Shown: piece after piece, positions 1,446-59,436 of the stretch
How positions within the stretch are numbered: position 1 is the first letter of the stretch
Layout of the letters: each line of letters opens with the position of its first letter
Assembly: GCA_009602725.1 (NCBI GenBank)
Contig: WELB01000055.1
Location: 49,688-113,687, forward strand
From: Spirogloea muscicola
Lineage: Eukaryota > Streptophyta > Zygnematophyceae > Spirogloeales > Spirogloeaceae
Reading direction: 5' to 3'
DNA: 64,000 bases
The notes under the pieces: model-generated
What the model was told of the DNA's origin: nothing
The model's input: only the letters and a program-made list of their open reading frames with translations
The model's database searches: none
Position numbers and translations under genes: made by a program

Positions 1446-1520
1446 CGCCCGTGGAGAAGAGGGGCTGGCAAAGCCAGCCCAAAAAGAGTGGACAATGTCT
1501 AAAGCCAAAGAAAGAGGGAG
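1446..1520 (-). repeat. Family C retroelement 3' tail
   Basis: Read on the minus strand this is GTCCACTCTTTTTGGGCTGG, then GCCAGCCCCTCTTCTCCA. It matches tails at 17060-17115, 27468-27540 and 31690-31742. No protein-coding part remains. The surrounding 1030-1450 is G- and C-run sequence with no gene seen. Confidence 0.65.
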
Positions 1521-1724
1521 GCACTTGCGGGGGCGGCGGGATCACGCGCCCGGCTTCGCCGGTCCGGCCAGACGGTTGCCGGGTCCCGGGCATTCGCCGC
1601 CGGATTGAAAGCGTCATCTGCGTGCTGGCCGTGCGCTGCATCCCCACTTCGGACCTTATCATTCTCGTGCTGGCTGGCTGTTCACAGCCGCGCCCCATTT
1701 CGGAGAGCCACTCTCTTTTCAATT

Positions 1725-2050
1725 GAGAGTTGAGAGTCCATTGTTTTGGGCTGGCCTCTCCCAGCCACCAGTTAATCTGGCCGCGCTTGCTTCTTTTCAA
1801 ACCAAAGAAAACAGTGAGTTAGGTGAAGGGGGTGGGGCCGGGGGGGCCGCCATGGAGGCTGGCGTGGCCTGAAGCGGCGCCAACCCTGTAGCGCAACCGG
1901 CCGCCGTCGCCCCCGGATCCCCGCCTGCGGCTTTCCTGGGCCGGCACCCTCCGGTTTCCTCGCCGGTTGCCTCCCATCCCGTAAGATCAGCAAGCGCGGC
2001 CAGATTAACTGGTGGCTGGGAGAGGCCAGCCCAAAAGGAATGGACAAGGG
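1725..2050. repeat. Two family A tails in inverted orientation
   Basis: The plus-strand copy at 1735-1792 (GGGCTGGCCTCTCCCAGCC, then CCAGTTAATCTGG) faces a minus-strand copy at 1990-2049. They enclose about 190 bases of GC-rich sequence without a gene. The arrangement would fold into a long snapback. Confidence 0.7.
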
Positions 2051-2129
2051 CTGCCCGTAAACAGTGGGGGTGTACAACCTGGTCGAGGTCCATGAGCATT
2101 GGTCGATGTGGTTGTGACGGAGGCCTATA

Positions 2130-4099: not shown

Positions 4100-4446
4100 G
4101 TGCTCCCTCTGCCTCCTTCAGCGGTCTACGGCCCGCGCGCCGCACCTGCGTGCCGGCAGAGCCCTCGCTGCTGCCTCTGGCTCTGGCCAGGGGACCCGCT
4201 TCCAGGAGTCCAGCTTCTTTGGGGATAGTTTTCCGGCAGCTAGTCTGTCGGATTTGAGGCTCCTCACTCGTAACTACTGAGTGGTTCATCCTCCCCCGTT
4301 CTGCTATAGCATCTGCAGGCCCCTTAGCAGCTGCTTAGCGCCTTCTTTTTAAAGCCCCTCCATCATCCGGCCCCTTCAAACCTTGGTCAATTCTGTTTCG
4401 GGCTGGCTTCTCACAGCCCTTGCCCCCAATGGGAGTGCCACTTCTC
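4100..4446 (+). mobile_element. 5'-truncated LINE copy, family B 3' end
   Basis: A degenerate C-terminal coding remnant lies at about 4130-4230. Then comes the family's 3' region (GGCAGCTAGTCTGTCGGAT, then CTCCTCACTCGTAACTACTGA) and the tail hairpin GGGCTGGCTTCTCACAGCCC at 4403-4422, followed by the TTGCCCCCAATGGGAG second stem and CACTTCT. Confidence 0.7.
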
Positions 4447-4612
4447 TCTGACCTGAGGCTGCTTAGCAGGGTTACTGAGTGCTTCGTAGCTGTTTTGCTT
4501 CTTCTTGTGCTTATTTTTCTTAGCGCTTCCCCTGGCCCCCTTCTCGTACTTTGTTCTTCCTTGTTTGGGCTCGCTTTCCAGCCCCTATCCTCAATGGGCG
4601 AGCCCTTCTTCT
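4447..4612 (+). repeat. Family H retroelement 3' tail
   Basis: It begins TGACCTGAGGCTGCTTAGCA and ends GGGCTCGCTTTCCAGCCCC, then ATCCTCAATGGGCGAGCCCT and TCTTC. It lies directly behind a family B tail. Other copies are at 5088-5180 (-), 31276-31460 (-), 31842-32015 (+), 48655-48790 (-) and 49410-49505 (+). Confidence 0.7.
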
Positions 4613-4837: not shown

Positions 4838-5087
4838 CGAATAGCCCAGCTCAACACAAGCCCCCGATGCCCCCCCGGCCCTCAGTCAGGCAACAACAAC
4901 AACAAGTACATGTTTATTTAAGGCGGGCTGGCCCACTTTGAAAGAGAAATACGGCTTCCAACTGGTGGCTGGGAGAAGAAAGTGCTCGCCCATATAGGAG
5001 AGGAGCTCGCAAAGCCAGCCCCAAAAAACAATGTCCAAAAGGGAGAGGCTAGCCCAAAAGCAATGGACAAGGTCTCAAATTATAGAG

Positions 5088-5180
5088 AGAGAAGGGCTCG
5101 CCCATTGAGGATAGGGGCTGAAAAAGGCCAGCCCAGAAAAGAATGTACAAAGGACGAGAAGGGGCCAGGGGAAGTACGAA
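5088..5180 (-). repeat. Family H retroelement 3' tail
   Basis: On the minus strand: CTTCTCGTCCTTTGTACATT, then GGGCTGGCCTTTTTCAGCCCC and ATCCTCAATGGGCGAGCCCT. A weaker hairpin tail precedes it at about 4970-5080. Confidence 0.65.
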
Positions 5181-5214
5181 GAACAACAAGCACAGAAATT
5201 ATGGGTGGCTCTCT

Positions 5215-5760
5215 CAAATTGAAGAAGAAGTGGCTCTCCCAATGGGGGCAAGGGCTGTGAGAAGCCAGCCCGAAAAGAATTGACAAGGTTCGAAGGGGCC
5301 AAACTACGAGCTAAGCAGCGACTGCGGGGCCTGAAGAGGCTATGGCAGAACGGGGGAGGATGGACCGCTTAGTAGTTACGAGTGAGGAGCCTCACATCCG
5401 ACAGACTAGCTGCCGGTAAACTATCCCCCTGACGAAAGCCGGAGGCCGCAGCGAGAGCACGGCCAGCACGCAGATGCAAGGCGTGGGCCATGGACCGCTG
5501 GAGGGAGACGGACAAGCGCATACGATACACCTGAGCCCACGAGCCAGCGGCGTTGAAGTCAGCCGGCTCACCGCGCCTGCGGGACACAGCGCGCCGTGCA
5601 AGCCTGGCCAACAGGTCGAGCCAGTGGGATCCGAGAGCCCCATGCACGTCCACAGCCAGGGGGACGAACTCGTCGGCAGCCGGGTGGTCGGCGTGTTTGG
5701 CCGCCTTGCTGCGAGCGGCCTCAAATTTGGGCCAAACGAGGAGAGCCCACTTGCTTAAGG
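5215..5760 (-). mobile_element. 5'-truncated LINE copy (endonuclease C-terminus plus family B tail)
   Basis: On the minus strand the frame from about 5760 to 5369 gives KAAKHADHPAADEF, then VDVHGALGSHWLDLLARL, NAAGSWAQVYRMRL and RAGRALAAASGFRQG. This is the C-terminal block shared by all LINE fragments in the window. The 3' region and family B hairpin follow at 5215-5345. The domain's KxxKY-like motif survives here as KAAKH. The copy lacks RT and is dead. Confidence 0.75.
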
Positions 5761-5847
5761 GCAAGGCATGTGAACAGACAGCGGAGGACCGGAGTTTGTC
5801 GTGACATGAATCTGACATTGCTGTTTCTGTTTTCGGTGGCAAGAAAG

Positions 5848-5893
5848 CAAGCGCGGCCAGATTAACTGGTGGCTGGGAGAGGCCAGCCCAAAG
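5848..5893 (-). repeat. Family A tail
   Basis: It shows AAGCAAGCGCGGCCAGATTA and GGTGGCTGGGAGAGGCCAGCC, the reverse complement of the A-type double stem. Confidence 0.65.
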
Positions 5894-5984
5894 TGGCAAG
5901 AAAGGGCTGGATGGCGCAAAAAGGAAGGTACCAATCGCCCATTTTGGCACCCCAGGTCTCAAGGGCCATCGTATCCTCAGACCG

Positions 5985-6100
5985 TCACTGAGAGTTTGCT
6001 TACTGCTGTCTCAGTCCTTAGCACTCCGACTCCTTCAGACCTTGTCCATTCTTTTGGGCTGGCCTCTCCCAGCCACCAGTTAATCTGGCCGCGCTTGCTC
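5985..6100 (+). repeat. Family A 3' unit just upstream of HGH1
   Basis: Long form of the A tail: GTTTGCTTACTGCTGTCTCA, TTAGCACTCCGACTCCTTCA, CTTGTCCATTCTTTTGGGCT, then the double stem. It ends about 200 bases before the HGH1 start codon, so it probably lies in or next to that gene's promoter. Confidence 0.7.
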
Positions 6101-11060: not shown

Positions 11061-11094
11061 ATAGGCCCGTCCGTTGCACTACGGTCGGGCCGAC

Positions 11095-11175
11095 TCCTAG
11101 CCAGACCTTGTCCATTCCTTCTGAGCTGGCCTCTCACAGCCACCTGCTGTCAATCTGGAAGCGCTGTCTGTTGCG
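11095..11175 (+). repeat. A/D-type tail variant
   Basis: CAGACCTTGTCCATTCCTTC is followed by GAGCTGGCCTCTCACAGCC and CTGTCAATCTGGAAGCGC, intermediate between families A and D. A family I fragment (TTTCGTGTACTTGAAACAA) follows at 11225-11290. Confidence 0.55.
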
Positions 11176-11319: not shown

Positions 11320-12640
11320 TAGCAGCTACTGGAGCTGCTAGAGAAGTAGGGCAGCAGCAGTGGCAGGCGAAGGGATGGGGGGGAAAAGAAGAAGTGGCTC
11401 TCCCAATGGGGGCAAGGGCTGTGAGAAGCCAGCCCGTAAAGAATTGACAAGGTTCGAAGGGGCCAAAGTACGAGCTAAGCAGCAACTACCGGGCCTGAAG
11501 ATGGGGAAAGGAGGGCCGGCAGAGCCCCTGGGGGTCTTTCCTGCGTCCGCTTCTGGAGCTGCTAGAGGAGTGAGGCAGTAGCAGTGGCAGGAGGAATGGA
11601 GGGGGGGGGGAAAGAGGGCCGGAAGTGCCGATTGGGGCGTTGCCGACCTGTCCTGCTGGAGCTGCGATAGGAGAGTGGGGCAGCAGCAGTGCCAGGAGGG
11701 ATGGCATGGGGGGGAAGGACGGCCGGAAGTGCCGATGAGGGCCTTGTCGACCTGGCCTATGTCTGTTGCAGGAGCTGCTAGAGGAGTGGAGCAGCAGCAG
11801 TGGCAGGAGGGAGGGCGGGGATGGAAAGGAAGACCGGAAGTGCCGATGAGGGCCTTGTCGACCTGTCCTGCGTCTGCTTCTGGAGCTGCTAGAGGAGTGG
11901 GGCAGCAGCAGTGGCAGGAGGGATGGCAGGGGGGGAATAGAGGGCTGGAAGTGTCGATGGGGCTTTATCGACCTGTCCAGCGTCCGCTGCTGGAGCTGCT
12001 AGAGGAGTGAGGCAGCAGTAGTGGCAGGAGAAATAATGGAGGGGGAAAGGAGGGCTGGAAGTGCCGCTGGGGGCCTTGTTGACCCGTCCTGCGTCCATTT
12101 CTGGAGCTGCTAGAAGAGTGGGAGGCAGCAGCAGTGGGAGGAAGGATGGAGGGGGTGGAAAGGAGGGCCAAACATGCCGATGGGGGCCTTGGCGACCAGT
12201 CCTGCGTCTGCCTCTGGAGCTGCTAGAGGAGTGGAAGCAGCAGCCGCAGCAGGAAGAATGACGGGGGGGGCGAAGGAGGGCCAGGGGTGCCACGGAGTGA
12301 AGGGAGCCGAGCCGATGGGGGCCTTGTCGACCCGACCTGCGTCCGCTTCTGGAGCTGCTAGAGGAGTGGGAGGCAGCAGCCGTGGCAGGAGGGACGGGAC
12401 GGGAGGGAAGGAGCGGGAGGGCTGGGGCATTGGGGGCTAGGCCGAAGGGGCAGGACCTGCCGCCGCGAATGCCATGGAGCCAAGGGGAGCCGTGCCGACG
12501 GGGGCCTTGTCGACCCGTCCTGCGTCTGCTGCTGGGGCTGCTTGAGGAGTGGGAGGCAGCAGTCGTGGCAGGAGGGATGGCAGGGGGTGGGAGGGAGGGC
12601 TGGCATGCCGGGGCCGCCAAGGGCGGGGTAGCCGAAGGAA
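11320..12640. repeat. Minisatellite of about 110 bp, 9-10 units
   Basis: Units begin GGAGCTGCTAGAGGAGTG and recur at about 11332, 11554, 11659, 11770, 11882, 11992, 12103, 12211, 12350 and 12533. Most are spaced 105-112 bases apart; the last two are longer. Each carries GCAGCAGCAGTGGCAGGAGG and CTTGTCGACC. The last units also contain GCCGAAGGGGCAGGA, which is found in the 5' coding part of the LINE at 52.9 kb, so the array may derive from LINE 5' sequence. The array runs into the assembly gap at 12733. Confidence 0.75.
11385..11500 (-). repeat. Family B tail inserted in the minisatellite
   Basis: GAAGAAGTGGCTCTCCCAAT, GGGGGCAAGGGCTGTGAGAA and GCCAGCCCG, then GAATTGACAAGGTTCGAAGG. This solitary tail splits the first and second minisatellite units. 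Confidence 0.7.
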
Positions 12641-13152: not shown

Positions 13153-13450
13153 AGCAAGCGCGGCCAGATTAACTGGTGGCTGGGAGAGGCCAGCCCAAAA
13201 GAGTGGACAAGGTCTGGAGCAAGCGCGGCCAGATTAACTGGTGGCTGGGAGAGGCCAGCCCAAAAGAATGGACAAGGTCTGAAGGAGTCGGAGTGCTAAG
13301 GACTGAGACAGCAGTAAGCGAACTCTCAGTAACCTCTCGTCAGTAGATGCAAATCTGAATAGTGTCTGGAGGAGTCGGAGTGCTAAGGACTGAGACAGCA
13401 GTAAGCGAACTCTCAGTAACCTCTCGTCAGTAGATGCAAATCTGAATAGC
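13153..13450 (-). repeat. Tandemly duplicated family A 3' unit
   Basis: Two A tails lie back to back (13153-13216 and 13219-13282). They are followed by two nearly identical copies of the upstream 3' region (GGAGTCGGAGTGCTAAGGAC, then CAGCAGTAAGCGAACTCTCA) at about 13283-13366 and 13371-13450. Confidence 0.75.
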
Positions 13451-15200
13451 TAGCAGGCGGAAAGACGTCGTTGCCACCTCCCTGCACAGCGGTTCCTGGC
13501 ATCTGCAGTCCACTTGCTGGCAGGCCGCGTTTTGGCTGCTGCCGTCCCGGGTTCGACAGGCCAGCGTTTGTCCGTTCTCTGGTCACTCTGATCTGCACTT
13601 GCTGACTAGAGCTTACAAAGCGCCCACTCGCAGGAGTCATGGAGAAAGCAGATTTTTTGCTCCTTCCGACCCTTTCTAAGCTTTTACATTCCTTTAAGCT
13701 GCCCTCTCACAGCCTTCACCTTACACAAAAGTGCTGTTTCTTCGCCCTCACTTCAGACGGCGCCCTTTGCATTCGTTGCCCATTCCGCCACTTTGGACCT
13801 TGGAATTGCCTTTGTGGAGCCGGCCTTCGGTAGCCAGTGCCGCCTCCTGAAAGACCTTCTCAACCTAGTTTGCCCTTGACCGCCAAGCAGCAATGCCCTC
13901 CTCGACCGGTACTGCACTCACCTGCGCACCGCTAGACTGGCGCTGTACCACATTGGCGGCTAAGCCGTTATGATGGATGCATCTAAGATCGCTCACTTTG
14001 CATCACTCCTGTGCTGATGGCCCCATCTGAGATGTGTGCATATGTGCCTTGCAAGACCCTGTTCAAGCCGTGTGTGTGTCGCAATGATATTATCACCGCA
14101 ACCTTGGCCTGCAATCCTGCACTTGACTGGCAAATAGTGAAGCCTGCAAGGTCGATGGCGAATGCAGGAATTCGCACGATACTTTTCAGCTGTTCAGATC
14201 ATGTCCTCAAGCAACTTGCCTGACTCACGATTACTTGAGGTAGTGAGGGTGGGCTCGGCACCTGCCGATCAGACGCCAGGTCTGTGCGGCTTAAAGTTAC
14301 ATCACAGTCAGGGAGCTCTCCCCCCTAGGATTGGAGAATCTCCTTTCGGCCCCTATCGCGGACAGCAGAAAGAGGGTGGAGAAACAGCTGTAGGAGAGGG
14401 AGACTAGCTCCATTAGGCTACGCACGAGCATTGAAAGGGCTTCTCATCCCTACATGATGTATTCCTGAAAGCTGCTCAGTCCACACCTGCCCCGTGCAAA
14501 GCAGCCATCCTGCGCTGGACCTTCATATCGTCTTGTCGTGTTATCGCGATATCGCTTTATCGATTGCTTCCCCTCAGCATGCAAACGGCGATAGAGGAGG
14601 GGCAGGCGTGGAAGACGAGGGGGGCTTGAAACAACCTTTGCTCTTCCATACATGGGGCAAGGCGCTAGGATCCATCCATCCTCAGGTGCTCTGCTGTAAA
14701 TGCAGGCCTTGGCTCCTCCAGAGGAGACAAGGATGACTAAAAGCGACTGCTAAGATCTATGTACAAAAGCCAAAAGTCAGCAAACAGGATGGACAGGGCG
14801 CCATGCTTGTGGGCTGGTCGTACGTATAGGTGCTGGGGCAAGGGGCAGAAGAAGCTGACGGAGCACAGCAAGCAGCAAGTTCTTGTCAATGTCTGTGGTC
14901 AATGGAGACCTCACACCGAGGAACCAATTCCTCACGGTATCATGGCACAGGCCCCCAGCAGCAGCTTCCTACAGAAAGCCAGGACTTGCAAGGCAAGGTC
15001 TGAAGGGCGCTGCCAAGACATGAATTATTGCATGAGGTACACGTGCACAAGCAAGCTGGGCAAGTGGACGCTTTCCCGTGCGTGCTTTCACACGCACCAG
15101 GCAGGGCAGATGCTGGGCCGCTCAGGGCACCTGGCAGGACCATTCCTCTGTAGCTGGCTCATATAGCCGCATTTACAACACAGATGAGCAATTCCAATGC
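13451..15200. other. Repeat-rich intergenic DNA without a recognised gene
   Basis: 13580-13650 is a family E fragment (TCTGATCTGCACTTGCTGAC and GCGCCCACTCGCAGG), also found at 44262-44330. A worn hairpin tail follows at 13670-13715. 13800-15200 has mixed composition; I see no gene or RNA that I can support. Confidence 0.4.
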
Positions 15201-15218
15201 GGTCATGGCCCCTTTCGT

Positions 15219-15300
15219 GATTTGGCCCCTTCGAACCTTGTCAACTCTTTACGGGCTGGCTTATCACAGCCCTTGCCCCCATTGGGAGAGCCTCATTCCA
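15219..15300 (+). repeat. Family B tail
   Basis: CCCCTTCGAACCTTGTCAAC, TTTACGGGCTGGCTTATCAC, then GCCCTTGCCCCCATTGGGAG. A second, degraded tail in opposite orientation follows at 15300-15530. Confidence 0.65.
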
Positions 15301-15576
15301 AAGGTAGGCAAGGGTTACGAAAGGCCAGCCCGAGAAAGCCGGACAAGGAAATGGACTGAGAGAAAGTTTTCGAAGGGGGCGATAGCCGTGAAAGCAGAAG
15401 GGGCGAGAGCTAGGGTGAAAACAGTAGGAAGTCGTGAAAATATACAAGCGCTGTCTCAGAGCTTGCCCGGTGGGATGAATCACTCAGTAACCACGAGTGA
15501 GGAGCCGCAAATCCGGAAGGACTAGCAGCCGGAAAAGCAGCAGGAAGCCGGACGAGCGTCGGAAGAAAGAGAGAAA

Positions 15577-15840
15577 AGTGACTGTCCCGATGGGGGCAAG
15601 GGCTGTGAAAAGCCAGCCCGAAAAGAGGTGACAAAATCGAAGGGGCCAAGTGACGGAGGGGCCTAAAACGCTATGTCAGAACGGGTGTAGGATGGACCAC
15701 TCAGTAGCTACGAGTGAAGAGCCTCAAATCCGACACTAGCTGCCGGAAAACAATCCCCCTGACGAAAGCCAGAGGCTGCAGCGAGAGCACGGCCAGCACG
15801 CACATGCTAGGCGTGGGCCATGGACATGGTCGGTCCATGG
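15577..15840 (-). mobile_element. LINE 3' end, family B
   Basis: Tail at 15577-15650, 3' region with ACCACTCAGTAGCTACGAGT, and the first part of the C-terminal coding block up to GGCGTGGGCCATGGAC. Truncated at about 15840. Confidence 0.6.
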
Positions 15841-15889: not shown

Positions 15890-16322
15890 ACCCCCGACCT
15901 GCGTGCCCAGGCACGATACATGGTGCTGGTGGAGAAAGCGGCCTTTGACCAGGTGGTGGAGCTCCATCCTCAGCCTGACCTTCGAGGGCGCGCCCGGCTC
16001 CTCTCAGCTCCCCCCCCCCGGCGGCGGCCTGGTTATCAGCGCTCCCAATATACGCGGCGCTCACCATGCCAGACACGGTCGTCAGTACGGCGGTCCCCCG
16101 GCTCCTGGGCCTCCCTCCCTGCCTCGTTGGGGATAGTTTTCCGGCAGCTAGTCTGTCGGATGTGAGGCTCCTCACTCGTAACTACTGAGTGGTCATCCTC
16201 CCCCGTTCTGCCATGGCCCCGTAGTCGCTGCTTAGCTCGTACTTTGGCCCTTTCGAACCTTGTCAATTCTTTTCGGGCTGGCTTCTCACATCCCTTGCCC
16301 CCATTGGGAGGACCACTTCTTC
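15890..16322 (+). mobile_element. LINE 3' end, family B
   Basis: GGGGATAGTTTTCCGGCAGC and CTCCTCACTCGTAACTACTG, then the B hairpin at 16272-16295 and GGGAGGACCACTTCTTCCTC. The upstream part (15890-16120) carries a coding-like stretch reading ARYMVLVEKAAFDQVVEL that I cannot assign. Confidence 0.6.
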
Positions 16323-16329: not shown

Positions 16330-16925
16330 TCTTCGTTGGGGTCATGCAGTGCGAGTGCGGTGCCCGCCACGCCGACCCTGCGGAGCTGGCTGCACACATG
16401 CTCCGCTGCGCGCACGGCGGCGAGAGGACCGCTTCCCACGGCCTCCTGCGAGACGGCATGCAGGGAGTGTTCATGGAGGCGGGCTACAAGGTGGCGGTGG
16501 AAAATACGTCAATCATGCCCATCTGGCTGGGCGCAGACGGTCAGCTCCACACCCGGCGCGCTGACCTAGTCGCCAACCCGCCCGGAGGAGGTCCGTGTAT
16601 CATCGCGGATGTGGTGACCACAGACACTTCGTCGACTCCGCCGCCCACCCCGCCAAGTCGGCGTCGACTGATGGGCAAGCTGTCGGTTTGCCTGCCCGGG
16701 GCAAGGAACGTAAGTACGCCGACCAGGTGATAAATTCGCGGCCCTGGCCATTGAGGTCCAGGCTTTCGGGGCTTGCGGCAGTGGCTGGCTGGATCTCCTC
16801 CAGCGACTTGCCCGGGATGCCATCGAGCGGCGGCCGGGTCTGCCAGGGGAGGTACAATTGTACATTCTTTTCTGGGCTGGCTTTTTCCAGCCCCTATCCT
16901 CAATGGGCGAGCCCTTCTCTCGGCT
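16330..16925 (+). mobile_element. LINE endonuclease-domain pseudogene with family H tail
   Basis: The best view of the C-terminal half of the LINE protein. It opens with a CCHC knuckle (QCECG...LAAHMLRC), then SHGLLRDGMQGVFMEAGY, then the restriction-like endonuclease core RRADLVANPPGGG...ADVVTTD. After a +1 shift the frame continues AKSASTDGQAVGLPARGKER and KYAD, where KERKY is the conserved KxxKY element. A second shift gives the ALAIEVQAFG and WLDLLQRLARD block. At least two frameshifts make it inactive. An H-type hairpin follows at 16862-16922. R2/NeSL-type LINEs carry this domain order. Confidence 0.75.
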
Positions 16926-17260: not shown

Positions 17261-17264
17261 CATC

Positions 17265-17410: not shown

Positions 17411-17534
17411 TCCGAATGAGGGCAAGAGCTGTGAAAAGACAGCCCGAAAAGAATTGACAAAGGTTCGAAGGGGCCAAATGACGAAGAGGCCTAAAGTGTT
17501 ATGTCAGAAAGGGTGTAGGATAGACCACTCAGTC

Positions 17535-31742: not shown

Positions 31743-31744
31743 GA

Positions 31745-43369: not shown

Positions 43370-44420
43370 TAGTCTCTAGTCAGTAAGTGCAAGTCACCAG
43401 AGCTAAGGGCAAAAAGACGTCGCCCTGACTGAAGCCGGAGGCAGCAGCCAAGGCGCGGCCTGCACGCACGAAGAGGGGCCGAGGGGGAGGGGACGGGGCA
43501 GGAAGCGGGAGGGGCGCAAGTTGCCGACCGGGCGCGGCGACGGCACCGCCCGCCCGGCGCGCTGCTGGCGCCAGCGACGCCAGCGTCGGCACCAAGTGGC
43601 CCGTGGCGCCCGCCGCGCCGTGCCGGCCGGGACCCTGGATCTTCCCAGCCCCACAATCCCGGACCCAACCTACCGCCCGACCGCCCGCCCGCCGGCCCGC
43701 CCGCCCGCCGCTTGGCATACGCCGTCGACTGCGGGCAAGCCGCGCCTCTGACCTTAGGAGCTGCCACTATCTGTCGGGTTGGCTATCCACTGCCCTCGAC
43801 CCCTTTCCTTCCTTCTTCAGCGCTTTTGGCCCCTTCGGACCTTGTCAATTCCTTTCGGGCTGGCTGTTGACAGCCCTTGCCCCCTTTGAGAGAGCCAATT
43901 CTTCTTTGGCCTGTTTGGGAGAGCCACTTCTTCTGGCTCCTCAGCTTAGCTTGTCAGATATGTACGTGCTCACTCGAGGATAATAGTGTCACCCTTAGCC
44001 AGCTCCTTGCCCCCATACCAGGACTTAATCAATGTTTAAATCGGCCTCCCTGTCAATTTCATGCGCACCGCGCGCCTTCTTTCTTTGGCAGCTGCCTCCG
44101 GTTTCTGAGGGGCCGGGCCTCGTTCTTTAGCTCTGGCTGGGTTTAGGGTACAAGACACCCCCTTAGCCAGCTCATTGCCTCGTTACCAGGACTTTGCAAG
44201 GCTCGAGTTGGCCTCCAATTTGTTTCATGCGCGCCGCGCGCCTTTCTTCTGTTCCCTCTAAATACTCTGATCTGCACTTGCTGACCAGATTATTGAGCGC
44301 CCACTCGCAGGTGTCTTGGAGAGTAGTCTCGTGCATTTTGCGCAATTCGGCCCTCGCAGACCATGTCCATTTGGTGGGGCTGGCCTCTCACAGCCATTGC
44401 CGTAGATTGGAGGAGGCATT
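43370..44420. mobile_element. Stack of LINE tails: C-terminus (-), B (+), F (+), F (+), E (+), D (+)
   Basis: 43370-43480 (-): RAGRALAAASGFSQG remnant. 43800-43945: B tail. 43985-44090 and 44150-44260: two F ends (CATGCGCACCGCGCGCCTTC and CATGCGCGCCGCGCGCCTTT). 44262-44330: family E. 44345-44420: D tail (GGGCTGGCCTCTCACAGCC). The proline-rich frames at 43480-43750 have no family match. Confidence 0.55.
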
Positions 44421-44917
44421 TTCTTTCCTTGGCGCTACAGGTGGTGACTGCTCAGTGGTCGGCCAGCTCGCCAGACCTTGGACGCCCCGACGTCGGAGCC
44501 GGGCGAGCCATCTCTCATCGTGCGCGCTCGGCAAGCGCGCCCTCGAACAGAGCAATCCCCTTTACAGCAGTGGCTGTGAGACCTTCTAACGATTCTCCGC
44601 GCTCATTCAGATGGCGATGGGGACCGCGGCGCCGCCGTTGGTCCCGCGCGAGGGCCTCCCGCGCCAGCCCCGAGCGCCAGCTCCCTGCCGCCCGGCGCCG
44701 CTCCGGTGCCGTGTCCCGGCCGCCGTGTTGGGCCCCCCCCTCTCCTCCCCTATTTGGGAGAGCCACTTCTCATTTGGGGCCTGTCCGCTGCCCGCATGAC
44801 TGCTGATACGGGGACTTGGAGCGCCTGGCCTGGCCTGTGGCTCCACTAATTGGTCCTGAGCACCGTCTGCATGCACCTGCTGGCTTTCCTAGCCGCTATT
44901 CCAATATAAGAAGGGTG

Positions 44918-44990
44918 GCTCTTCCAATGGGGGCAAGGACTGTGAAAAGCCAGCCCGAAAGGATTGACAAGGTCCGAATGGCTAAAAGCG
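44918..44990 (-). repeat. Family B tail upstream of SGNH copy 2
   Basis: GGGTGGCTCTTCCAATGGGG, GCAAGGACTGTGAAAAGCCA, GCCCGAAAGGATTGACAAGG. It ends about 95 bases before the start codon of copy 2. Confidence 0.65.
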
Positions 44991-48499: not shown

Positions 48500-49170
48500 C
48501 CGAAGAGAAGTCGAAAAAGAGAGGAAGTGCTCGCCCACAGATGGATAGGGGCTGGGAACGGCCAGCCCAAAAAGAATGAACAAGGGTCGAAGGCGCTGGG
48601 GAAGCGCTAGAAGAAAAAGCACTACAAAAAGAAAGAGAAGACACAAAAGAGAGAAGGGCTCGCCCATTGAGGATGCGGGCTGGAGAAAGCCAACCCACAG
48701 AAGGAAGTAAGCAGCTACGAAACACTCAATAACCTCTGCTAAGCAGCCGCAGGTCAGAGAAAGTGGGCTCCTGATAGCGGGTCCCCTGCCTAGGACCAGA
48801 GGCGGCGGCAAGGGCCCGACCGGCGCGGAGATGCAACGTGCGAGCCATGGACCGCTGCAACGAGACGGCCAAGCGCATGCAATACACCTGCGCAAGAAGA
48901 AGTGGCTCCCAATGAGGGCAAGGGCTGTGAGAAGCCAGCCCGGAATGAATTGACACAGGGTCGAAGGGGCCACAATGACGGAGGGGCCTGGAGATGCTAT
49001 GTCAGAACGGGTGAAGGATGGACCACTCAGTGCGCAAGACATCCGGCTGCATGGTAGTCCACCAGCTCCCCATGGAAGCGGCGGAAGATGGCGTGGCGCG
49101 AGAAAGCGCGGCCAGATTGACTGGCGGCTGTGAGAGGCCAGCCCAAAGGAATGGACAAGGTCTGAAGCGA
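48500..49170 (-). repeat. Family H, H, B and A tails in series
   Basis: H variant at 48505-48600, H at 48655-48790 (CTGCTAAGCAGCCGCAGGTC), B with 3' region at 48893-49035, and A at 49105-49168. All are in minus orientation. Confidence 0.65.
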
Positions 49171-49409
49171 GAGCTGGTTGAGCAGCTCGAGCCACCGAGC
49201 TCCCATGGCACCGTGCGTGTCGATGGCGAAAAAGCCCTAAAGCCCGCTTCAATGTTTTGACCCACCTTGACGAGTGGTGGTGGGTACCGGCAAGGTTACC
49301 AGCGGGTCAAGGTAAGTAGGTGAGAGATTAGCAGTCCCAGGCTACACTGGCCTTGGGAATCAAGGGTGGAGGAGCAGGGCAAGTATCGATCCGAGCTGCT
49401 TGGTGCTTC

Positions 49410-49505
49410 ATGTGCTAGCTTTTTAGCGCTTCCCCTTGCCCCTTTTTTCATTCATTTTGGGCTGGCCTTTCCCAGCCCCTATCCTCCAAGGGCGAGCATT
49501 TCTTC
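49410..49505 (+). repeat. Family H tail
   Basis: TAGCGCTTCCCCTTGCCCCT, ATTTTGGGCTGGCCTTTCCC, AGCCCCTATCCTCCAAGGGC. Confidence 0.65.
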
Positions 49506-49624
49506 TTCCCAGGCTACTCTGGCCTTGGGAGGGGGGAGGAGGCTGAGAGGAGCCGGGCGCGCACTCGATCGTGCGGCGAAAGGAGCTCAACTGCCTGCCA
49601 ACGGGGGCGGGGACTGTGAATCCA

Positions 49625-52600
49625 GCCCAGAGAGAGAAGGCGCACGGTGCGCATGAAATAAAAAGGGATGCCAATTCTAGCCATACAAATGTCCTTTTCA
49701 CGGGGTAATGAGCTGGCTAAGGGGGACACTAATGCCCCTGAGTCTGACAAGCTACGCTGAGGAGCCAAACCACCACCATGGAAGCCATTAGCCTGGGCTA
49801 ATGCTCGCCCAGCACGCTGCTGTATCGCGACTGTCTGCGAGCGCTGTAGACTCAAAGATAGCAGCATTCTAAAGCATGCAACGATGGCTTGCGGGACGCT
49901 AAAATGCCCTAAGCTACCAGCCCGACTACGTCGGCGGGCATCGACATGCAGTGCCCGGCGATGGAGGAGGGAAATCCACTTCGTTCCAAAGCCGCCGTAT
50001 ATGTCCATGGCGCATGAGAAGAACTGGTCGCCCCAGGGGTGGTCATTACAGTGCCTCTCCTTCTTCCTCTCCGCATGATGTGCCAACCTGGCACAGACGG
50101 TGTGGGTGCCCCTTGTTGGAATGCGTCGATGAGAACGACGTCGAGGAGAAGACGAGGCCCACCACCCCGGGGGGTGGCCACCACATCCAGACGCCTGACG
50201 TAAGGCCTGTCACGCTTCTGGAGCACGGGCATGATGCCCGGCACCTCCATGGCCGCATGATAACCTGCCTAGCGCACCAAGCCATACATAGCGTCTCTGA
50301 GGAGATTGTGGGAGGCATTACGTTCACTTCCCTCAAAACATCGAAGCATGTGGGCTGCCAAAGATACCTCATCCTCAGAACGATGGCCACATTCACACTG
50401 TCAAATGCCAGCCAAACAAAGTGGAGGGAGGCCGAGATGGTGGTGGACAGCCGTCCGGAAGAGGTCGTCGGAGAGCGGGAGGGATATATAAATCGGCAAA
50501 GCGTTGAGCCACTTCGACACCCCCGGAGAGCTGATGGAGTGGAGACGAGAGAGCCCACGCCCATCCTCCTTGAGCAAAGCTTTCAGGTGGCTCATGGCTC
50601 GCTCATTGGCTGCACGTGAAAAGCGAGCTTGAGCCTTCAAGTCAGAGCATCTTGCCCACGCTGCAAAGTCGACCTGATCTGCCGCGAGTGATGGGAAGGA
50701 GCGGAGAAGGTCTCTGCGAACGTCAGAGAGGGAGGTTTGAAAGGGCAGGGTCCCATTTGCCACGCCAGCTATTGCTGGTGCCTGTACTGGCTGACCCCTC
50801 CTGATGAAGCGCGTTGAAATTGTGGAGGCCACTTGGGCCCAACACCCCAGATGCGCCGCGCGAGCCAGGTGAGCCAGAGAGCAGCAGCCAAGGCCGCCCT
50901 TGCCTATGGGGAGTGTCATTTGTAGGAGGGCGGCAGGCGTTGTAGGGAGTGCCGGGTGGTCCAGCAGGCCGACCAGAGCCTGTTGGAGGGCTGACATCCG
51001 CAGCGGCATATATGTTGTCCAGAGAGGTGGTGGGAGGAACTGCCCGCTGCAGGTAGGTTGGGCGTTGGGTCACGCACCGGGTTAGGATAGCAACAGTCAG
51101 CTGGGAGTCATGCAATGTGGGTAGGGCTGGGAGAGTCTTAAAACTGTCGCTCGATGGTTGCCTGCACCTCCTGCCCCACCTGTGCTGCCTCGCCCAGAGG
51201 GACTCCAAGCACCATCATGCCAAGGGGGGGTTTCTGGCACCCTACCGGAAGCTGAAGGGTGGGAGGGATGCCGACTGGCGACCATGCCGTACATTTGTCG
51301 GGGCGGACTGTGAGGGCGAGAGAGTGTAGCTCACACTCCAAGGTGCTGAAGGCTCGAGTGACATCTGCAGGGGGGCCCACCAAAGTTGTGTCATCTGCAT
51401 AGCTAGGCAGAAGTACCTCTGGGTGGGCCGCCGCCGTGGTGCGCAGCGCACGTAAATGAGCCAAAGCAAACAGGAAATCACCGAGAGGGTCGCCCTGTCG
51501 GGTGCCCGTGCATGATTTTAGGACAACCTGCGAGGTGCCCGCTTCCCAAAGTAAACAAGATGCAGCCCCATACGTGCAACGAAAGAACAGGACAAGCGAG
51601 GGGAGGAAAGTGCGGAGCTCCTCTGCAACTGCTCCACAGTCGACGCAGTTGAAAGCGTCTTTGACGTCAACGGAGTGGGCCATCAAGCTGGGATTGGAGT
51701 CCGTGGCCACCCTCAGGCCATGGACAACTGCTTCTGCTCCTGCAGAGAGCCCCGCGCCGAACTGGTGTGGGGAGAAGTGAAGCTGGGCCGCTTTTCTATG
51801 CTGCTGGAAGCGTGCCTTGGAGACCAGGCGTGTGAGCACCTCACCCATAGCGATGGGCGAACGCTCCCTGTTGCTTTGGAAAGGCCGAGAAGGGTGCTGC
51901 AAGTCAGAGCCGCCCTAGCCTTGGGGGAGAGGAGGCGCCACCGCCTTTCACACTTTGTGTAAAAGGGAGAAGTCGCCAGCCTCATCGTCGAGCCAGAGCT
52001 CACGGAGATGTTCAGACAGCCAGCCCGATGGCCCGCCAGCTGCAGCTTTCCGGCTCCATATCAGCGCTGACCGCAGAGCAGCCGGATCGAGCTCCACTGG
52101 TGTTGGGGACTGAAAATCGTCGAGCCAGGGCGGAAGGTGATTTTGGGCTGGGGGATGAAGGGCCCGCAGGGCAGCCAGTGTGTCAGCGTTGTGGGGTGCC
52201 GGTGTAGCTGGATCCAAGGTTTGGGCGGCGCGTGAGAGATCCCGGCACAGCCAAAGCGTATGGCGCGGCGGACGGCTGTTGCGGCTGGGGTGGCAGGGGT
52301 CGGCCGATTGGCGTTGGACACCTGGACAGCAGCCCGATGCTCTTCCAAGAGCTGCTCCCATGCACCGCCCTCAAGGAGTTGGCAGCGCGCCAGTAGCACT
52401 GCTCGCTGGCCTGGTCCACTTGGTAAAAGGTCCCAGGACTAGTCGAGGGAGGAGCTGGAAGACCGTCCAGGCAGCGTCATCAAAACTGCTGCGCGCCATG
52501 CGGGTGAGGATAGGCCGGGTTGCACGCTGCAGGTGGGGCCGAGCCCAATGTGGAATGTGCCTCAAGGGTGGCAGGCTGGGCTCGAGAAGAACTGCATCCA

Positions 52601-53345: not shown

Positions 53346-53365
53346 CACTGTCGGGCATTGGGAGA

Positions 53366-53492
53366 GCAAGCGCGGCCAGATTGACTGTGGCTGGGAGAGG
53401 CCAGCCCAAAGGAATGGATAAGGTTTGAAGGAGCGGGAGTGCTAAGGACTGAGACAGCAGCAAGCGGACTCTCAGTAGCCTCTAGTCAGTAG
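53366..53492 (-). repeat. Family A 3' unit
   Basis: CAAGCGCGGCCAGATTGACT, GTGGCTGGGAGAGGCCAGCC, then GGAGCGGGAGTGCTAAGGAC and GCGGACTCTCAGTAGCCTCT. Confidence 0.65.
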
Positions 53493-53499: not shown

Positions 53500-54340
53500 G
53501 ACACTTGCTGTTGAGCAGCCGCAGGTCGGGACGAACTTGCCTCCGAGCAGCGGGTCCCCCGGCCAGGGCCAGAGGCTGCAGCCAATGCGCCATCAGCACG
53601 TCGATGGGGACCGCCTGCGCCGCTGCTGGTGCCAAGGCTTTGGTGGCCTCCCGCGCCGGCCGGTGCGCCGGCGCCGCGCCAGGGGCCACTCGGCGTGCAG
53701 TGTCCCGGCCGCCCTCTCCCCCATCAACCGGGCCTCCTCCACCGCCCGCATCGTTGCTGCTACGTAGGTACCGAGAGCGCCTTGCTTAGCCTGGCCCACG
53801 CCTTGCAGCTGCGTGCTGGCCGTGCTCTCGCTGCGGCCTCCGGCTTTCGTCAGGGGCTAGTTTCCCGGCAGCTAGTCTGTCGGATTTTAGGCTCCTCACT
53901 TGTAACTACTGAGTGGTCCATCCTCCCCCGTTCTGCCATAGCCTCTTCAGGCCCCTTGGTCGCTGCTTAGCTCGTAGTTTGGCCCCTTCGAACTTCGTAA
54001 ATTCTTTTCGGGCTGGCTTCTCACAGCCCTTGCCCCCATTGGGAGAGCCACTTCTTTGTGGCTCCGCTAAGGAGTCCTGAGCACCGTCTGCTCGCACCTG
54101 GCTGGACTTTCATAGCCGCTCTTCCAATGCCGGCAGCCGTATTCTTCTTCGTGCTGCCCCGAAGTGCTCTCACCTCCTCCATCGCCTGGCACAACGTGTC
54201 GATGCCCGCTGACGTTGTCGGGCGGGTAGCTTGGGGCATTCTAGCGTATCGCTAGCCATCATAGCTTGCTACAGAATGCGGCTGCCATTGAGTCTGCAGC
54301 GCTCTCAGGCGCTCGCGATATACCAGCCGATCGGCCACCC
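53500..54340 (+). mobile_element. Family B LINE 3' end and family F fragment upstream of SGNH copy 3
   Basis: 53560-53800 holds GC-rich remnants. The B 3' region and tail run 53790-54055 (hairpin GGGCTGGCTTCTCACAGCCC at 54009-54028). 54195-54335 is an F coding piece with GTCGATGCCCGCTGACGTTG and GCTACAGAATGCGGCTGCC. The gene copy begins 30 bases later. Confidence 0.6.
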
Positions 54341-54364: not shown

Positions 54365-56855
54365 ATGGCGCACGCGCTATAGGCGCTGGCGACGGCGCTG
54401 TGCGTCCTGGCGGCGGCCCTGCTGGGCTGGCACGGCGGCCGCAGCCTCCTGTCTGGCCCGCCGGCCCATGTGCTCGGCATCGCGCCCCGCCGCTGGGGCA
54501 GCAGCTTCGAGGCCGAGGCCAGCCTTTCCAGCCGCCGGCGGCTGCTGCACTTGGATGACTGGGTGACTGACCAGACGGCCTCCATCTCCATGGACGGCTT
54601 GGGCGCCACCGTCTCGGACCTGCACAGGCCGTTCTACTGGGCGTCTGTGTACCAGCGTAAGGGATCGCCGCTCATCGGCCGCTCTGGGTGGCGCCGCGAT
54701 GCTGACGTCCCACCGCAGGCCTTTGTGCACCTCGATGGCACCGCCACCCATACTGCCGGAGACCTTGTGCGCGTGCGTTTCCGATGCCGCCGGAAGCACG
54801 CTTCATTGTGCCAGTAGTTAGCTGGGCAGTGGGTCGCAGTTTGCTAACCTGGCCTGCAACCGCGCTGGGCTGCCGTTGCTCAATTGTACGACCCACGCAA
54901 GTCTGCCAGCTGATCCGATGCCTCCTCCTTTGCTGGCTCGGCCCCCGCTTCGCTCCCCGTTGCTCGCAGCTGCTGGCAGGCAAAAGCGTGACAGTGATGG
55001 GCGACAGTCTGAGCAACCAATTGCACGAGCTTCTGATTATCTCCTTGCAGCGCCAGGGCTACGAGGACTACATCACCGAGTTGCCCCGCAGGTCGGGCGC
55101 GCCTCATACCTCCACTTGCCCGTCCTACCCTCCACTGCAAGTCTCTCATGGACTTGCTCATGCTTTTGTCCACTTTGGAAAAGCCTCGTTACCGACGACT
55201 TGCTGCAACTCCAAGCCTGTGCCATTACATACTTCAAGTCCTTGGCTGTGCTGTCTGTTGTGTTTTTTACTGCATGGTTGCTTGCCTCACATTGGCTGCT
55301 TCTCTCCATCTTAGAAACATCCCAAAGTCCAGCTGCCGTCCTCAGGCCATCAGCAATGCCACACAAAAAAGAATTCAATTCTTATCCAGGCGTGACTTTC
55401 TAGGAGCCAATGATGAGACTATGGTATACTGCAGCACACTGCTTGCTACTTATGTTTTGCAGATACAGCTGCAATGGCACCTTACACAGCACAATGGAAG
55501 AGCTTGAGCATAATCTTTGCTACGCGGCATATTATGATGCCGATTACTGGCCTAGAAGGAAGTTCTTGGAAAAGCAATGTGAGACTGTCCTGGTCACCTT
55601 TGTCATTGGAGGCCCTTTCAAGAATATGACTTGGACATACTATCGAGGTGGGTCTATGTGACGAGTCCCCTTAACAGGAAGTTAGTCACAGCTGAGAGGC
55701 TCCCTTGAGCAGAACAATAGCGACAAGCTTGCAACCATCTTCACATCGACACCAGCATTCAGCAGACAGGGAATCTTCTTAGCTGTAGGGTGAATTGGGC
55801 ACTTCAACAAAACAGGCCGTGGGCTTGCACTGCAGCTTACATGCTCTCCGAGCAGGACGGAAAGAAGGGAGCGACCTACATACTTTGGCCAGGGATGCTG
55901 GACCACCTCTTGAACAATAGCGACATTGTGAGGAGCAGCAACCTGCTTATGCTACTGCTGAAGGATCTGTGACCTGTGGATGAGATCTGCATGTACAGCT
56001 TGTTGTAGTCTGGCATACAACAGTCGTTGTTGTCGTCGAAATTCTCCAGCATATTGTCGATCTTGGCCGCTTGTTGCCAGAAGGGAGCCAGACATTGTAT
56101 CAGATGCAGGGAAGTTCGAAATTTAATCACATGCATCAAGCAGCTATGATAAGCTGGACCCTGTGACTTGTCTGTACAGGTGATTGCAAATCTTGGTGTT
56201 CATTATCGAATGAACGAGTCGGAAGACAGGCTTACTTACCACTACAATGTCCTTGCTGAGCGGATGGAAGCCTTTGATACAAGCTTCCAGGCAAGCTTGC
56301 TTTTTTCAGACAGTACCTCAACATTTCTACGGCAATGAAGGGTCAGGGCAGTACAATATAAACACGAAGTTGCGTACAGATCTAGAGCCGGAGTTTGCCA
56401 CCTGCCATTATGCTGACAACATCGACATCCAGGTTGGCACAGGCACCGCATGTTGCTTGGCTTTAAATCTGTTGCTGCTTGACTTCTCAAAAGAGAGGAA
56501 ATTGAAAGAGACAGCACACATATGGTTTGTGGTGTAGGTGGCAATCTGGCAGCTCTGTGCAGCCGTAACAGCTAATACTGGCCTGATACCAGCCAAAAAT
56601 CATGTCTGCAGCTTTGGAGGGATCGCCTGATGCAGGAAGCAGCCAAGGCCAGAGGTCTGGCTATAATGCTGTGGAGAGATGGACAAGCCAGAGTTACATA
56701 CTAACACATGGCCACATCCTTCGTTTCGGGATTGCACACACTTTGCCTTTGTCCCGGGTTGGCGGACTCCCGTCTTTGACTCCATGTACCGCACAGCTGT
56801 TACAGAGCTTTGCAAGAGGGGCCAGGTTGACAGGACATACTGTTTGGACTTCTGA
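54365..56855 (+). pseudogene. SGNH/PC-esterase-like gene, copy 3, decayed
   Basis: Exons by comparison with copy 1: 54365-54772, 54970-55091, 55463-55647, 55836-55927, 56180-56432 and 56612-56855. Codon 6 is a stop: the CTGCAG of copy 2 has become CTATAG (TAG at 54380-54382), before the membrane anchor. Exons 2-4 are open and in phase with SVTVMGDSLSNQLHELL intact. Exon 5 has a 2-base gain and a 4-base loss near 56280-56320. Exon 6 lacks 5 bases near 56675, shifting the frame before the RDCTHF motif. Copies 2 and 3 are much closer to each other than to copy 1, also in introns and flanks, so they arose from a later duplication. Confidence 0.8.
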
Positions 56856-59436
56856 CATTCCCGCAAGGGTCTGTCACATTGGCAGCAATTTCTGTTCAGC
56901 AACTAGGCTCTGGATGTCAGCAGATCTAGTCTTCCGTAAGAAGAATCAGAAGAAGAATCAGTCAACAAGAGGCATTGAAGGGCAGGTATTGAAATCTGTG
57001 GCAGGCCCGCACACAAAAACGGTCCACAGTACATTGGCACCTGCAGGTTCTGATGAATATACAAGGTAACAATCATCTGATATAATCCAGATGTTTGGCA
57101 TCGTTTCTTGCGTCATAATCAGCATCGCAGTACTGAAGCCTACATGCTGAAGCCAACTAGTGGTAAAGTCGACCAGCTAATTACACGTTGTTATTACACG
57201 TTATCTTAGTAGACACAATGCGACATCCAGAAATGTGAACCAGAATACGGAGAAATGTGACAAGAAAGAGGATGAAAAGATGTAAATTTGCAGCACCAGA
57301 TACATGAATAGCTGTTGTCCTGAACAATCTCACCATGAATTGCTCAACAAAGCAGACAACGATGTTGTGCTGGCACAACTCTGGTACACCTTGACAAAGA
57401 GAGCAGAATGTGGAGCTCCTTCGCTGACGAATCTCACTCGAGTTTCTAAGAGGATTATATACCACATCAGTCCTTGCTCCATGTACAGGTAGAGTACAAA
57501 TAGCCCAGAGCAAGCGCATCATCCAATATCACAAAGCCTGTCAACACAGGAGCATCGAGACATAATTGCTGCCATTTTCTACTGAGCACATACACTGTCG
57601 GACAGGCTAGTCCGTGGAGCTTAAGCGGAGGATTCAGGAACGGGGTCCTTGTGTACGGACGACTGATGAAGTGCTTAGGTCTGCGAGCGCTGCAGGCTCA
57701 GCTTGAGCCGCATCCTGTAGCCCGAAAGAAGGGCCTATGAGGCACTGTGGTGCCCCAAGGCAACCCCCTCACAACGGCGGCGTACATCTAAACCTGCTGA
57801 GCAAGACGCTGCAGGTGAGAAGGGTAGCGACTTTGCCACGTACAGGCTGCGATGCTCTGGTGCTCGTGCTCTGCTCCTGCTCAAGCCCACGTCCTGCTGG
57901 CGCCCCATCCATCCCATCGCTAATGCCTGCCTTAGCGGCCACCGCCCACCAGCTCTGCTCGCTTGCTCTGCGAGCCCAGAGTGGCCACTCAGAGTGCAGC
58001 TCGATCCTTAGCGCCGTCCATTTTGACCTTCGTTTGTTCCAAACACACGGAAGTTCTTAGCGCCGATGGCGCTGCTGTGCGCGTCGGCGGCAACCCATCT
58101 GGGCTGGCCTGGCCACTAGAGCCTACCCACCTGCTGGCTCGCACTATTGCTCGTCGTGGCACTCAGTCACGGCACCAGTGATCGTCATGAGGCGTGCGAG
58201 GCGTGGCTGGAACGACAGCACTCTGACCTGCGGCTGCTCAACAGGGGACATCAAGCACCCCCGTGGCCACTTGATTCTGTGTGCTCTAGACCTTTCTGGC
58301 CCCCTTCGAACTTTGGAAATTCCTTTTTCTGGGCTGGCTGATCACAGCCATCGCCCTCTACTGGAAGAGTCTGATTCCTTGAAGCTGACAGCTCTGCATG
58401 CCAGTGGCTGCTGCGGACTAGCTGACATTGCCGGCAAGTTACATTTGACGAAGCCACGGCTGCGGCTGCACGTGGGCCCTTGCGTCGAGGGCACTGTAAC
58501 AGCGCAACGGTTGGCACCTCAGCAGCACCACTGTGTTCCACCGCTACGCTACCTTCGGGTCCTTCCACACCTTGCTCATATTCTTATTTCGTTCATCATT
58601 TTTCAGGGCACTAAGCTCCCCTTGCGCTGTAGTCTTTTGCGGGCGAGCAATTTCTTCTTGCATAGCTGTCTGAAGTGTGTGCCTTTCGGCCTTTTGGACC
58701 TTGTCCATTTTTCCTGGGCTGGCTTTTCACAGCCCCCACCCCCTTCTGACGAGCACTGATAATGCTATGGAATGGCCTCGTCCAGCCAACGCCTTACGTT
58801 AAATACAGCTGTTCATGCGCGCCACCGTGCCGCTACATGTTGTTGCAGGATACCTTGCCGCTTTGCTCACGGTGACCACAGGCCTGGGGTTGAATAGGGT
58901 TGTGTTCAGCAGACACTCAGATATACAGACCAGAAATGGAGGTACGCCTATGCTTTCATCTTGCTATTACGGCCTACAGATGCTCTCTGAGCCAGTTTAG
59001 CATAGAACAGCACTCATGGCTTTGAATATGCTGCATGACATCAAGACTTCTTCGCTTCAATTCTGGGAGCACTGATGTCAGAAGGTGGCAATCCAGCAGG
59101 AATGTTAGAAGCTGCCAAGCTCAAGGTCCTGGAGAGAATCTGATGGGGACTGTCTCAGTATGTTCAACAATTTCCCCAAAGTGGATCTGATGAATATGTG
59201 CAGCAACCGAACATGCGGGATACTATGTTGCCATGACAAGGTTGAGTCTGAAGCTGATTAGGATGGTCGACTATTATCTGGTCTCGACAGCAATGATCAT
59301 CAGGACGCATAACTTGGACTTGCATGCACGTTTGTGCTATAATTTAGGATAAATAGAAGCTTGCACGCATGGGGCAAGGAATGTCAATTTTCTGATGCTG
59401 CTGCAACCCAGCACTGCTTTGCAAGCTGTGACTGCG
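56856..59436. other. Intergenic DNA with two hairpin tails
   Basis: 56856-57180 matches the flank of copy 2. A worn F coding piece (-) is at 57660-57770. D-like tail at 58290-58385 (GGGCTGGCTGATCACAGCC) and C/H-like tail at 58690-58760 (GGGCTGGCTTTTCACAGCCC), both (+). No gene is recognised. Confidence 0.5.

Follow-up and report, generated by a model that had tools for sequence, protein, structure and literature searches.

A hairpin module at the 3' ends of R2-like LINEs in Spirogloea muscicola

Long interspersed nuclear elements (LINEs) of the UnaL2, ZfL2 and SART1 type carry an apurinic-type endonuclease. According to the reports cited here, the reverse transcriptase (RT) of these elements recognizes a stem-loop in the 3' untranslated region (UTR) that is essential for retrotransposition, and R2 likewise requires its 3' UTR (PMC5135761); LINEs with a restriction-like endonuclease are mostly target-specific, and Dualen encodes both apurinic-type and restriction-like endonucleases (PMC4640811); the R2 protein produces 5'-truncated insertions (PMC11331408); and Chlamydomonas has tails shared between LINEs and short interspersed nuclear elements (SINEs), SINEX being SINEs with a LINE tail (PMC3747384). 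Here, we examined a compact hairpin module in a stretch of 64,000 nucleotides (nt) from Spirogloea muscicola (Zygnematophyceae; contig WELB01000055.1, positions 49,688 to 113,687, forward strand), hereafter the window. The original prediction, made from the letters alone, was that one RT recognizes the hairpin in RNA and mobilizes LINE copies together with unrelated passenger RNAs. Our results suggest that the module very probably forms the conserved 3' end of LINEs from a diverse clade. Their RT is R2-like, the C-terminus carries a putative restriction-like endonuclease, and no apurinic-type one was detected beside the scored RT matches. The pattern resembles an ordinary, if extensive, expansion of LINEs, mostly of 5'-truncated copies, and not the mobilization of unrelated RNAs by one enzyme. 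The predicted conserved retroelement terminus was therefore retained, whereas the unrelated passengers and the single enzyme were not.

As in UnaL2, ZfL2 and SART1, a conserved stem-loop stands at the extreme 3' end and is followed by a short tail. Unlike in those elements, the enzyme here is R2-like with no apurinic-type domain found, its recognition of the module is presumed, and at least four sister subfamilies in a single genome share one module of about 65 nt. The RT matches R2 best, and a C-terminal CCHC and a D..K motif, both read by eye, recall R2, NeSL and Utopia. Most of those LINEs are target-specific; in contrast, the 83 window copies described below are scattered, many within other LINE copies, with no single target seen. 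RandI/Dualen and SINEX of Chlamydomonas offer a further parallel, because algal LINE 3' ends are shared there by other elements. In contrast to the situation with SINEX, the 100 distinct short copies compared here included no SINE and, unlike in Dualen, no apurinic-type match lies near the listed LINE RTs, of which the N-terminus was only partly read.

LINE coding ends upstream of the module

The core of the module was searched as exact matches to GGGCTGG-N3..12-CAGCC on both strands. The window contains 56 matches compared with 0.70 expected, and none of 100 shuffles had as many. Eight are palindromic C/H-type sites that match on both strands, and the distinct places number 48, including three (937, 45145 and 54424) at which a flanking module is not evident by eye. 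This agrees with the predicted occurrence at more than 40 places on both strands, and the T-rich spacer, the hairpin and the CTTCTT-like end were confirmed in the form described. The GTCMATTC box was matched 26 times in the window (3.12 expected). In the whole assembly (153,112,186 bases, 471 contigs), the core occurs 38,324 times (19,187 + 19,137, palindromic sites again being taken twice) and the reversed pattern 94 times (52 + 42); the density is 0.875 per kb in the window and 0.25 per kb in the genome, an approximately 3.5-fold enrichment. No description of the module was found in an open-access library, outside which most subscription journals fall. Rfam at gathering scores returned only a transfer RNA (tRNA) in the window, nothing further appeared at 30300-32700 with E up to 1, and no relative was found in viral contigs.

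When the RT piece of the window was used as genome query, 1,390 first-look candidates were obtained, which are unconfirmed, and 148 matches were scored. Many of the latter have open frames of more than 1,300 amino acids, several form mutually identical sets, and their open reading frames (ORFs), read onward, share the C-terminus ...LLTRGY* or a sequence near it. We fetched 40 stretches of 801 nt (ORF end plus 3' flank) picked from these 148; for several subfamilies they include two to four near-identical copies, and the set is neither random nor independent. An ORF end was readable in 34 of the 40 stretches and not in 6. Five of the 34 were of the P/X type discussed below. Among the other 29, a core lies at most 260 nt after the stop codon in 28, and at +53 to +113 in 27. 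The own core of L089 has one altered base, the counted match at +180 being a different copy, and L103 is the sole core-less case.

The module thus forms the 3' terminus of LINEs with an ORF ending in ...LLTRGY* or a close variant. In subfamilies A, B, C and H it is about 65 nt long with a CTTCTT-like end, and the UTR of A/B/C/H and Q/R, measured up to 20 nt before the core, is 33-93 nt. A-type modules terminate LINEs V (L094, L095) and L101/L102; C-type modules terminate L083-L086, L097, L108 and L109; and H-type modules terminate L087-L093, L107 and L110. The B subfamily has a LINE C-terminus upstream as well, its modules terminating the window LINE 5719-5226, L112 and L104. In the more distant Q/R LINEs, a related, shorter hairpin is present and the GTCMATTC box is missing. 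The predicted families A, B, C and H are sister LINE subfamilies. The five P/X ends read ATGYGC.CCGCGCGCC and lack the core. A small possible hairpin was also noted in P/X LINEs (L071-L074, L099; window 49632-49792 and 37405-37580), whose 3' end is ...TCATGYGC.CCGCGCGCCTTCTCTC-like.

Two candidate observations were set aside. L104 seemed to combine a B-type ORF with an A-type module, as if modules had been swapped, but its own B module lies at L104:163-233 and the A copy is further downstream. An ORF end 157 nt before the C core at 48568 belongs to a neighbouring C copy with an altered core at 48696, and this distance was not used as evidence.

As for the enzyme, Pfam gave one RVT_1 match and no other among 13 distinct ORF pieces of the window, and RVT_1 plus a sub-threshold zinc finger on the LINE ORF. 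In PDB, the Q-type LINE ORF matched R2 proteins best (9nl3, E 7.3e-7, or 1.7e-8 with a profile; 9dou, 1.1e-6), followed by another RNA-directed DNA polymerase (4.6e-5) and LINE-1 (9.3e-5), and all of these matches span the RT only. The LINE C-terminus has a CCHC followed by R..D..D..K..Y, read by eye, which we take to resemble the motif of restriction-like endonucleases. A structure model of this putative endonuclease from a window piece had a predicted local distance difference test score of 48.8, too poor for a fold search. The apurinic-type endonuclease profile PF03372 had 10 genome matches, none of them beside the 148 scored RT places (nearest about 9 kb), PF14529 being outside this search. 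These 10 matches compare with the 1,390 unconfirmed first-look LINE RT candidates in the same genome.

Module conservation, phylogeny and insertion features

Between subfamilies A, B, C and H, identity was compared over 43 pairs of 11 references (A_104 and B_w2 were left out). Coding ends were 59% identical (shuffled 37), the lowest values being unreliable because some references contain little coding sequence. The UTR had fallen to 41% (shuffled 40; range 16-66), whereas the module retained 76% (shuffled 44; range 65-87). The predicted contrast between a conserved module and differing upstream sequence was therefore well founded, and conservation far above that of the adjoining UTR is what would be expected if the enzyme of each LINE reads the module as a signal. 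The impression of many unrelated families arose because the module is constant while the preceding sequence is unalignable: UTRs differ by subfamily, and flanking DNA differs in truncated copies. In the mechanism that we propose, the LINE's own enzyme would bind the module in its RNA, target-primed reverse transcription would begin at the 3' end of the module, and early termination would yield short insertions.

A tree of ORF C-termini (13 rows, 153 columns, midpoint root, the A group as one row) needed five changes for six module labels, which is the minimum; shuffled labels needed 8.9, and 0 of 200 shuffles were as low. A/B/C/H were grouped apart from Q and P/X with support of 100/100. Module type thus follows the ORF tree, and a single common RT, as predicted for all families, is not required.

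BLAST with 17 LINE 3'-end references detected 83 copies in the window (1436-58754, both strands) and none in the reversed window under the identical rule. Ten are core-less copies of P/X type. The match to a LINE covers at least 100 nt in 41 copies and less than 100 nt in 42. Direct repeats of at least 9 nt flank 17 of the 83 copies, compared with 11 of 237 with swapped flanks, and a near-end scan found repeats of at least 8 nt at 16.9% of copies versus 5.9%; the search for target-site duplications proposed with the prediction thus revealed an excess. In addition to these duplications and the RT ORF upstream, the copies have a fixed 3' end and variable 5' ends, with 5'-truncated inserts as short as 45 nt, and several are nested within LINE coding sequence. 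Pyrimidines predominate in the 12-nt flanks of 48 copies, at 0.64 and 0.62 compared with an assumed 0.50.

Among full LINE 3' ends, 9 of 35 abut another LINE fragment (at most 12 nt away) in the same orientation (L072, L074, L089, L092, L101, L102, L104, L107 and L108) and 2 of 35 in the opposite one, an orientation bias. Abutting fragments are probably nested insertions. Template jumping was considered and dropped, the window cases at 4104-4612, 30340-30607 and 40464-41011 being read as nested insertions; the expected number of 2.59 abutments is an underestimate, given that a large part of the sequence consists of LINE pieces and that joints of this kind arise from nested insertion by itself.

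One alternative is that one RT recognizes the hairpin in any RNA and moves LINEs and unrelated SINE-like passengers alike, the module acting as a tag in trans. Such a system would account for module conservation far above that of the adjacent UTR and for the many insertions barely longer than the module, and sharing of tails by LINEs and SINEs is known, including in Chlamydomonas (PMC3747384). On the other hand, A, B, C and H are all preceded by LINE coding sequence, module type agrees with the ORF tree, and no common non-LINE sequence precedes the short copies examined. For the 42 short copies of the window, directly adjacent upstream sharing consisted only of other module copies and subfamily UTR. 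Likewise, 100 distinct short copies, drawn from 291 copies (136 short) of the window and the fetched loci, a non-random sample with several overlaps, contained no non-LINE passenger family; this second comparison counts 86 window copies instead of 83, under a different overlap rule. Upstream matches of at least 100 nt were UTRs or ORF ends of LINE subfamilies. Within the window and the fetched loci, passenger RNAs were rejected as candidates, the all-against-all upstream comparison having returned only LINE modules, subfamily UTR and overlapping loci, and we consider mobilization in trans unlikely. It is conceivable, if doubtful, that the module is interchangeable among the A/B/C/H enzymes and the subfamilies compete for one tag, in which case module-only insertions would be self-sustaining, SINE-like units and not failed LINE copies.

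Predicted folding of the module

Folded singly, two C and two H references formed an outer stem GTYCATT/AATGGGCGA enclosing the hairpin, with z of -2.4 to -4.6. The P reference had z of -2.5, and A, B, Q, R and X showed no clear gain over shuffles (z -1.0 to +0.6). Alignment folds, made with copies above identity limits of 74-80%, were better than column shuffles for H (z -6.2), C+H (-5.8), C (-4.3), B (-4.0) and A (-3.0), with no gain for Q/R (-0.7). The outer stem was retained in the H and C+H alignments, and C alone combined a short outer stem with a local stem of three pairs. A local second stem was retained in A and B; the predicted second short stem fits these two subfamilies, whereas the predicted fold of C/H is the outer stem. 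For base-pair counts, the alignment took in 44 of 54 C/H copies that had at least 82% identity; the 10 dropped copies mostly had a 5' arm resembling flanking DNA, and their removal may favour the outer stem. In these 44 copies, 91.2% of cells pair, compared with 91.1% in shuffles, and sliding the partner lowers pairing to 33-61%. At the variable position M of GTCMATTC, 33 of 34 readable C/H copies have C opposite G, and 14 of 19 readable B copies have A opposite U (the remaining ones being A/G 3, C/G 1 and C/U 1). This is a hint between families; many copies were unreadable. The hairpin is retained in A, B, C, H and Q/R by sequence conservation and not by covariation, and is absent in P/X.

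Several observations count against a LINE 3' terminus that is read by an R2-like enzyme. First, for the 42 of 83 window copies with matches below 100 nt, the module itself is the main evidence of LINE origin, and about 5 of the 17 flanking repeats consist of module or UTR letters, from the copy itself or its neighbour, and may not be target duplications. Second, only C-terminal coding sequence was read in the B subfamily, with no RT fetched, and the P/X clade, which includes the only recognized RT of the window, lacks the core, which implies that the hairpin is dispensable for some relatives. The restriction-like endonuclease remains putative, its assignment being based on a motif read by eye. 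Finally, A and B sequences folded singly do not outperform shuffles (z about -1 to 0), and the C/H copies have 3 double-sided pair changes compared with 1.7 +/- 1.0, 101 of 500 shuffles being as high. The compensatory changes, the lack of which had been named as refuting the prediction, were thus not in excess, and the fold is supported by conservation and energy, not covariation.

It is quite improbable that the module has no function of its own and persists only as part of young LINE 3' ends through common ancestry. Many copies are indeed near-identical and young, and covariation is no higher than in shuffles, but the neighbouring UTR has diverged to the shuffled level between subfamilies while the module is still 76% identical. 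Part of the B-type LINE (5719-5300) has 40 scored genome matches at 98-100%, itself included. That the module is the end of a Helitron or, as the prediction allowed, of a DNA transposon can hardly be credited: Helitrons have a hairpin near the 3' end and a terminal CTRR, and the present combination of a hairpin close to a fixed 3' end and changeable sequence upstream is reminiscent of them, but here a LINE ORF lies upstream (with RT in the families where it was read), target-site duplications are in excess, 5' ends vary and the end is CTTCTT-like, not CTRR, a comparison that included no separate search for terminal inverted repeats.

With the module as a LINE 3' terminus, this genome contains tens of thousands of such ends, and four sister subfamilies keep one terminal element next to unalignable sequence. 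It may therefore serve as a mutational scan, made by nature, of the template features that an R2-like LINE enzyme may read. It should be noted that, in a repeat-rich genome read by eye, 5'-truncated LINE tails can be mistaken for many unrelated families.

Other features of the window

Positions of the LINE features are given in Table 1.

Table 1. LINE-derived features of the window (about 60 of the 83 copies; omitted ones are weaker matches)
Positions	Strand	Feature	Basis
1436..1517	-	H-type module	BLAST
1644..1712	+	B-like module	BLAST
1736..1791	+	A-type module, 69-nt insert by 9-nt duplication	BLAST, repeat scan
1989..2053	-	A-type module	BLAST
4104..4444	+	B-type LINE 3' end, read as nested in C-type LINE	BLAST
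4445..4612	+	C-type LINE 3' end, rest of host element	BLAST
4974..5038	-	H-type module	BLAST
5092..5194	-	C-type 3' end, 9-nt duplication	BLAST, repeat scan
5226..5719	-	B-type LINE: C-terminal coding (LLTRNY*), UTR, module	tblastn, BLAST
5846..5892	-	A-type module-only insertion, 45-nt insert, 12-nt duplication CTTTCTTGCCAC	BLAST, repeat scans
5984..6100	+	A-type 3' end	BLAST
11090..11165	+	A-type module	BLAST
11390..11501	-	B-type 3' end	BLAST
13153..13219	-	A-type module, second tandem copy	BLAST
13217..13600	-	A-type LINE 3' end, LLTRGY* stop 64 nt before core 13261	BLAST
15215..15292	+	B-type module	BLAST
15576..15825	-	B-type 3' end, 10-nt duplication	BLAST, repeat scan
16129..16319	+	B-type 3' end	BLAST
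16374..17243	+	LINE C-terminal coding, broken by two module insertions	tblastn, repeat scan
16858..16916	+	C-type module inserted in LINE coding, no clear duplication	BLAST, repeat scan
16987..17118	+	H-type 3'-end insertion within LINE coding	BLAST, repeat scan
17162..17411	+	H-type LINE 3' end + module	BLAST
17409..17533	-	B-type 3' end	BLAST
17532..17627	+	X-type 3' end, no core	BLAST
17830..17895	+	B-type module, 67-nt insert, 11-nt duplication	BLAST, repeat scan
18239..18434	+	B-type 3' end, 10-nt duplication	BLAST, repeat scan
18487..18602	-	X-type 3' end, no core	BLAST
23850..23922	-	B-type module	BLAST
27450..27622	-	H-type LINE 3' end + module, core 27493, 97 nt past stop codon	BLAST
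27594..28016	-	H-type LINE C-terminal coding, LLTRGY* end	ORF reading, tblastn
28308..28372	-	P-type 3' end, no core	BLAST
28534..28988	+	B-type LINE 3' end	BLAST
30340..30390	-	A-type module, 3' part, split by insertion 30383..30607	BLAST
30383..30607	-	B-type LINE 3' end, read as nested in A-type module	BLAST
31178..31255	-	B-type module	BLAST
31279..31533	-	C-type LINE 3' end	BLAST
31670..31739	+	H-type module, 3' end not intact	BLAST
31841..32011	+	C-type 3' end	BLAST
32125..32295	-	B-type 3' end	BLAST
32515..32599	-	B-type module	BLAST
36417..36523	-	P-type 3' end, no core	BLAST
37307..37400	-	A-type 3' end	BLAST
37405..37580	-	X-type LINE 3' end, no core, coding ends LTRGY	BLAST
39474..39647	-	X-type 3' end, no core	BLAST
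39710..39766	-	C-type module	BLAST
39789..39922	+	B-type 3' end	BLAST
40464..40820	-	B-type LINE 3' end, 350-nt insert in older module, 12-nt duplication CCTTTCACAGCC	BLAST, repeat scan
41591..41807	-	P-type LINE 3' end, no core	tblastn, BLAST
43825..43902	+	B-type module	BLAST
43934..44083	+	X-type 3' end, no core	BLAST
44915..44981	-	B-type module	BLAST
48522..48635	-	C-type 3' end, second copy behind 48650..48721	BLAST
48650..48721	-	C-type module, altered core GGGTTGG, shortly after ORF end LLSRGY*	
48898..49031	-	B-type 3' end, 9-nt duplication	BLAST, repeat scan
49100..49167	-	A-type module	BLAST
49394..49506	+	C-type 3' end, 12-nt duplication	BLAST, repeat scan
49632..49792	-	X-type LINE 3' end, no GGGCTGG core	BLAST
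49742..50373	-	C-terminal coding (CCHC, putative restriction-like endonuclease), same LINE as RT 51138..51914, frame broken	tblastn, LINE C-termini
51138..51914	-	RT piece, P/X-type LINE; X-type 3' end downstream at 49632	Pfam RVT_1 E 4.1e-10
53364..53492	-	A-type LINE 3' end, LLTRGY* stop 64 nt before core 53407	BLAST
53792..54055	+	B-type LINE 3' end	BLAST
58216..58349	+	C-like 3' end, old, diverged	BLAST
58653..58754	+	A-like 3' end, old, diverged	BLAST

A tRNA-Ile (aat) gene (31745-31818, + strand) directly follows the H-type module at 31670-31739; since the module comes first, the tRNA does not form a SINE head. A 3-kb unit is present in two copies that are 83% alike (45050-48024 and 54327-57286), and the second contains three ORF pieces with no Pfam match. 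The A-type LINE end at 13153-13449 contains tandem duplications, one of the module (65 nt) and one of the ORF end (87 nt), the latter giving ...LHLLTRGY* twice. Finally, two near-identical Q-type LINEs of the genome differ by an internal inversion of 149 nt, L070 681-829 being 98.7% alike to L069 673-821 on the opposite strand.

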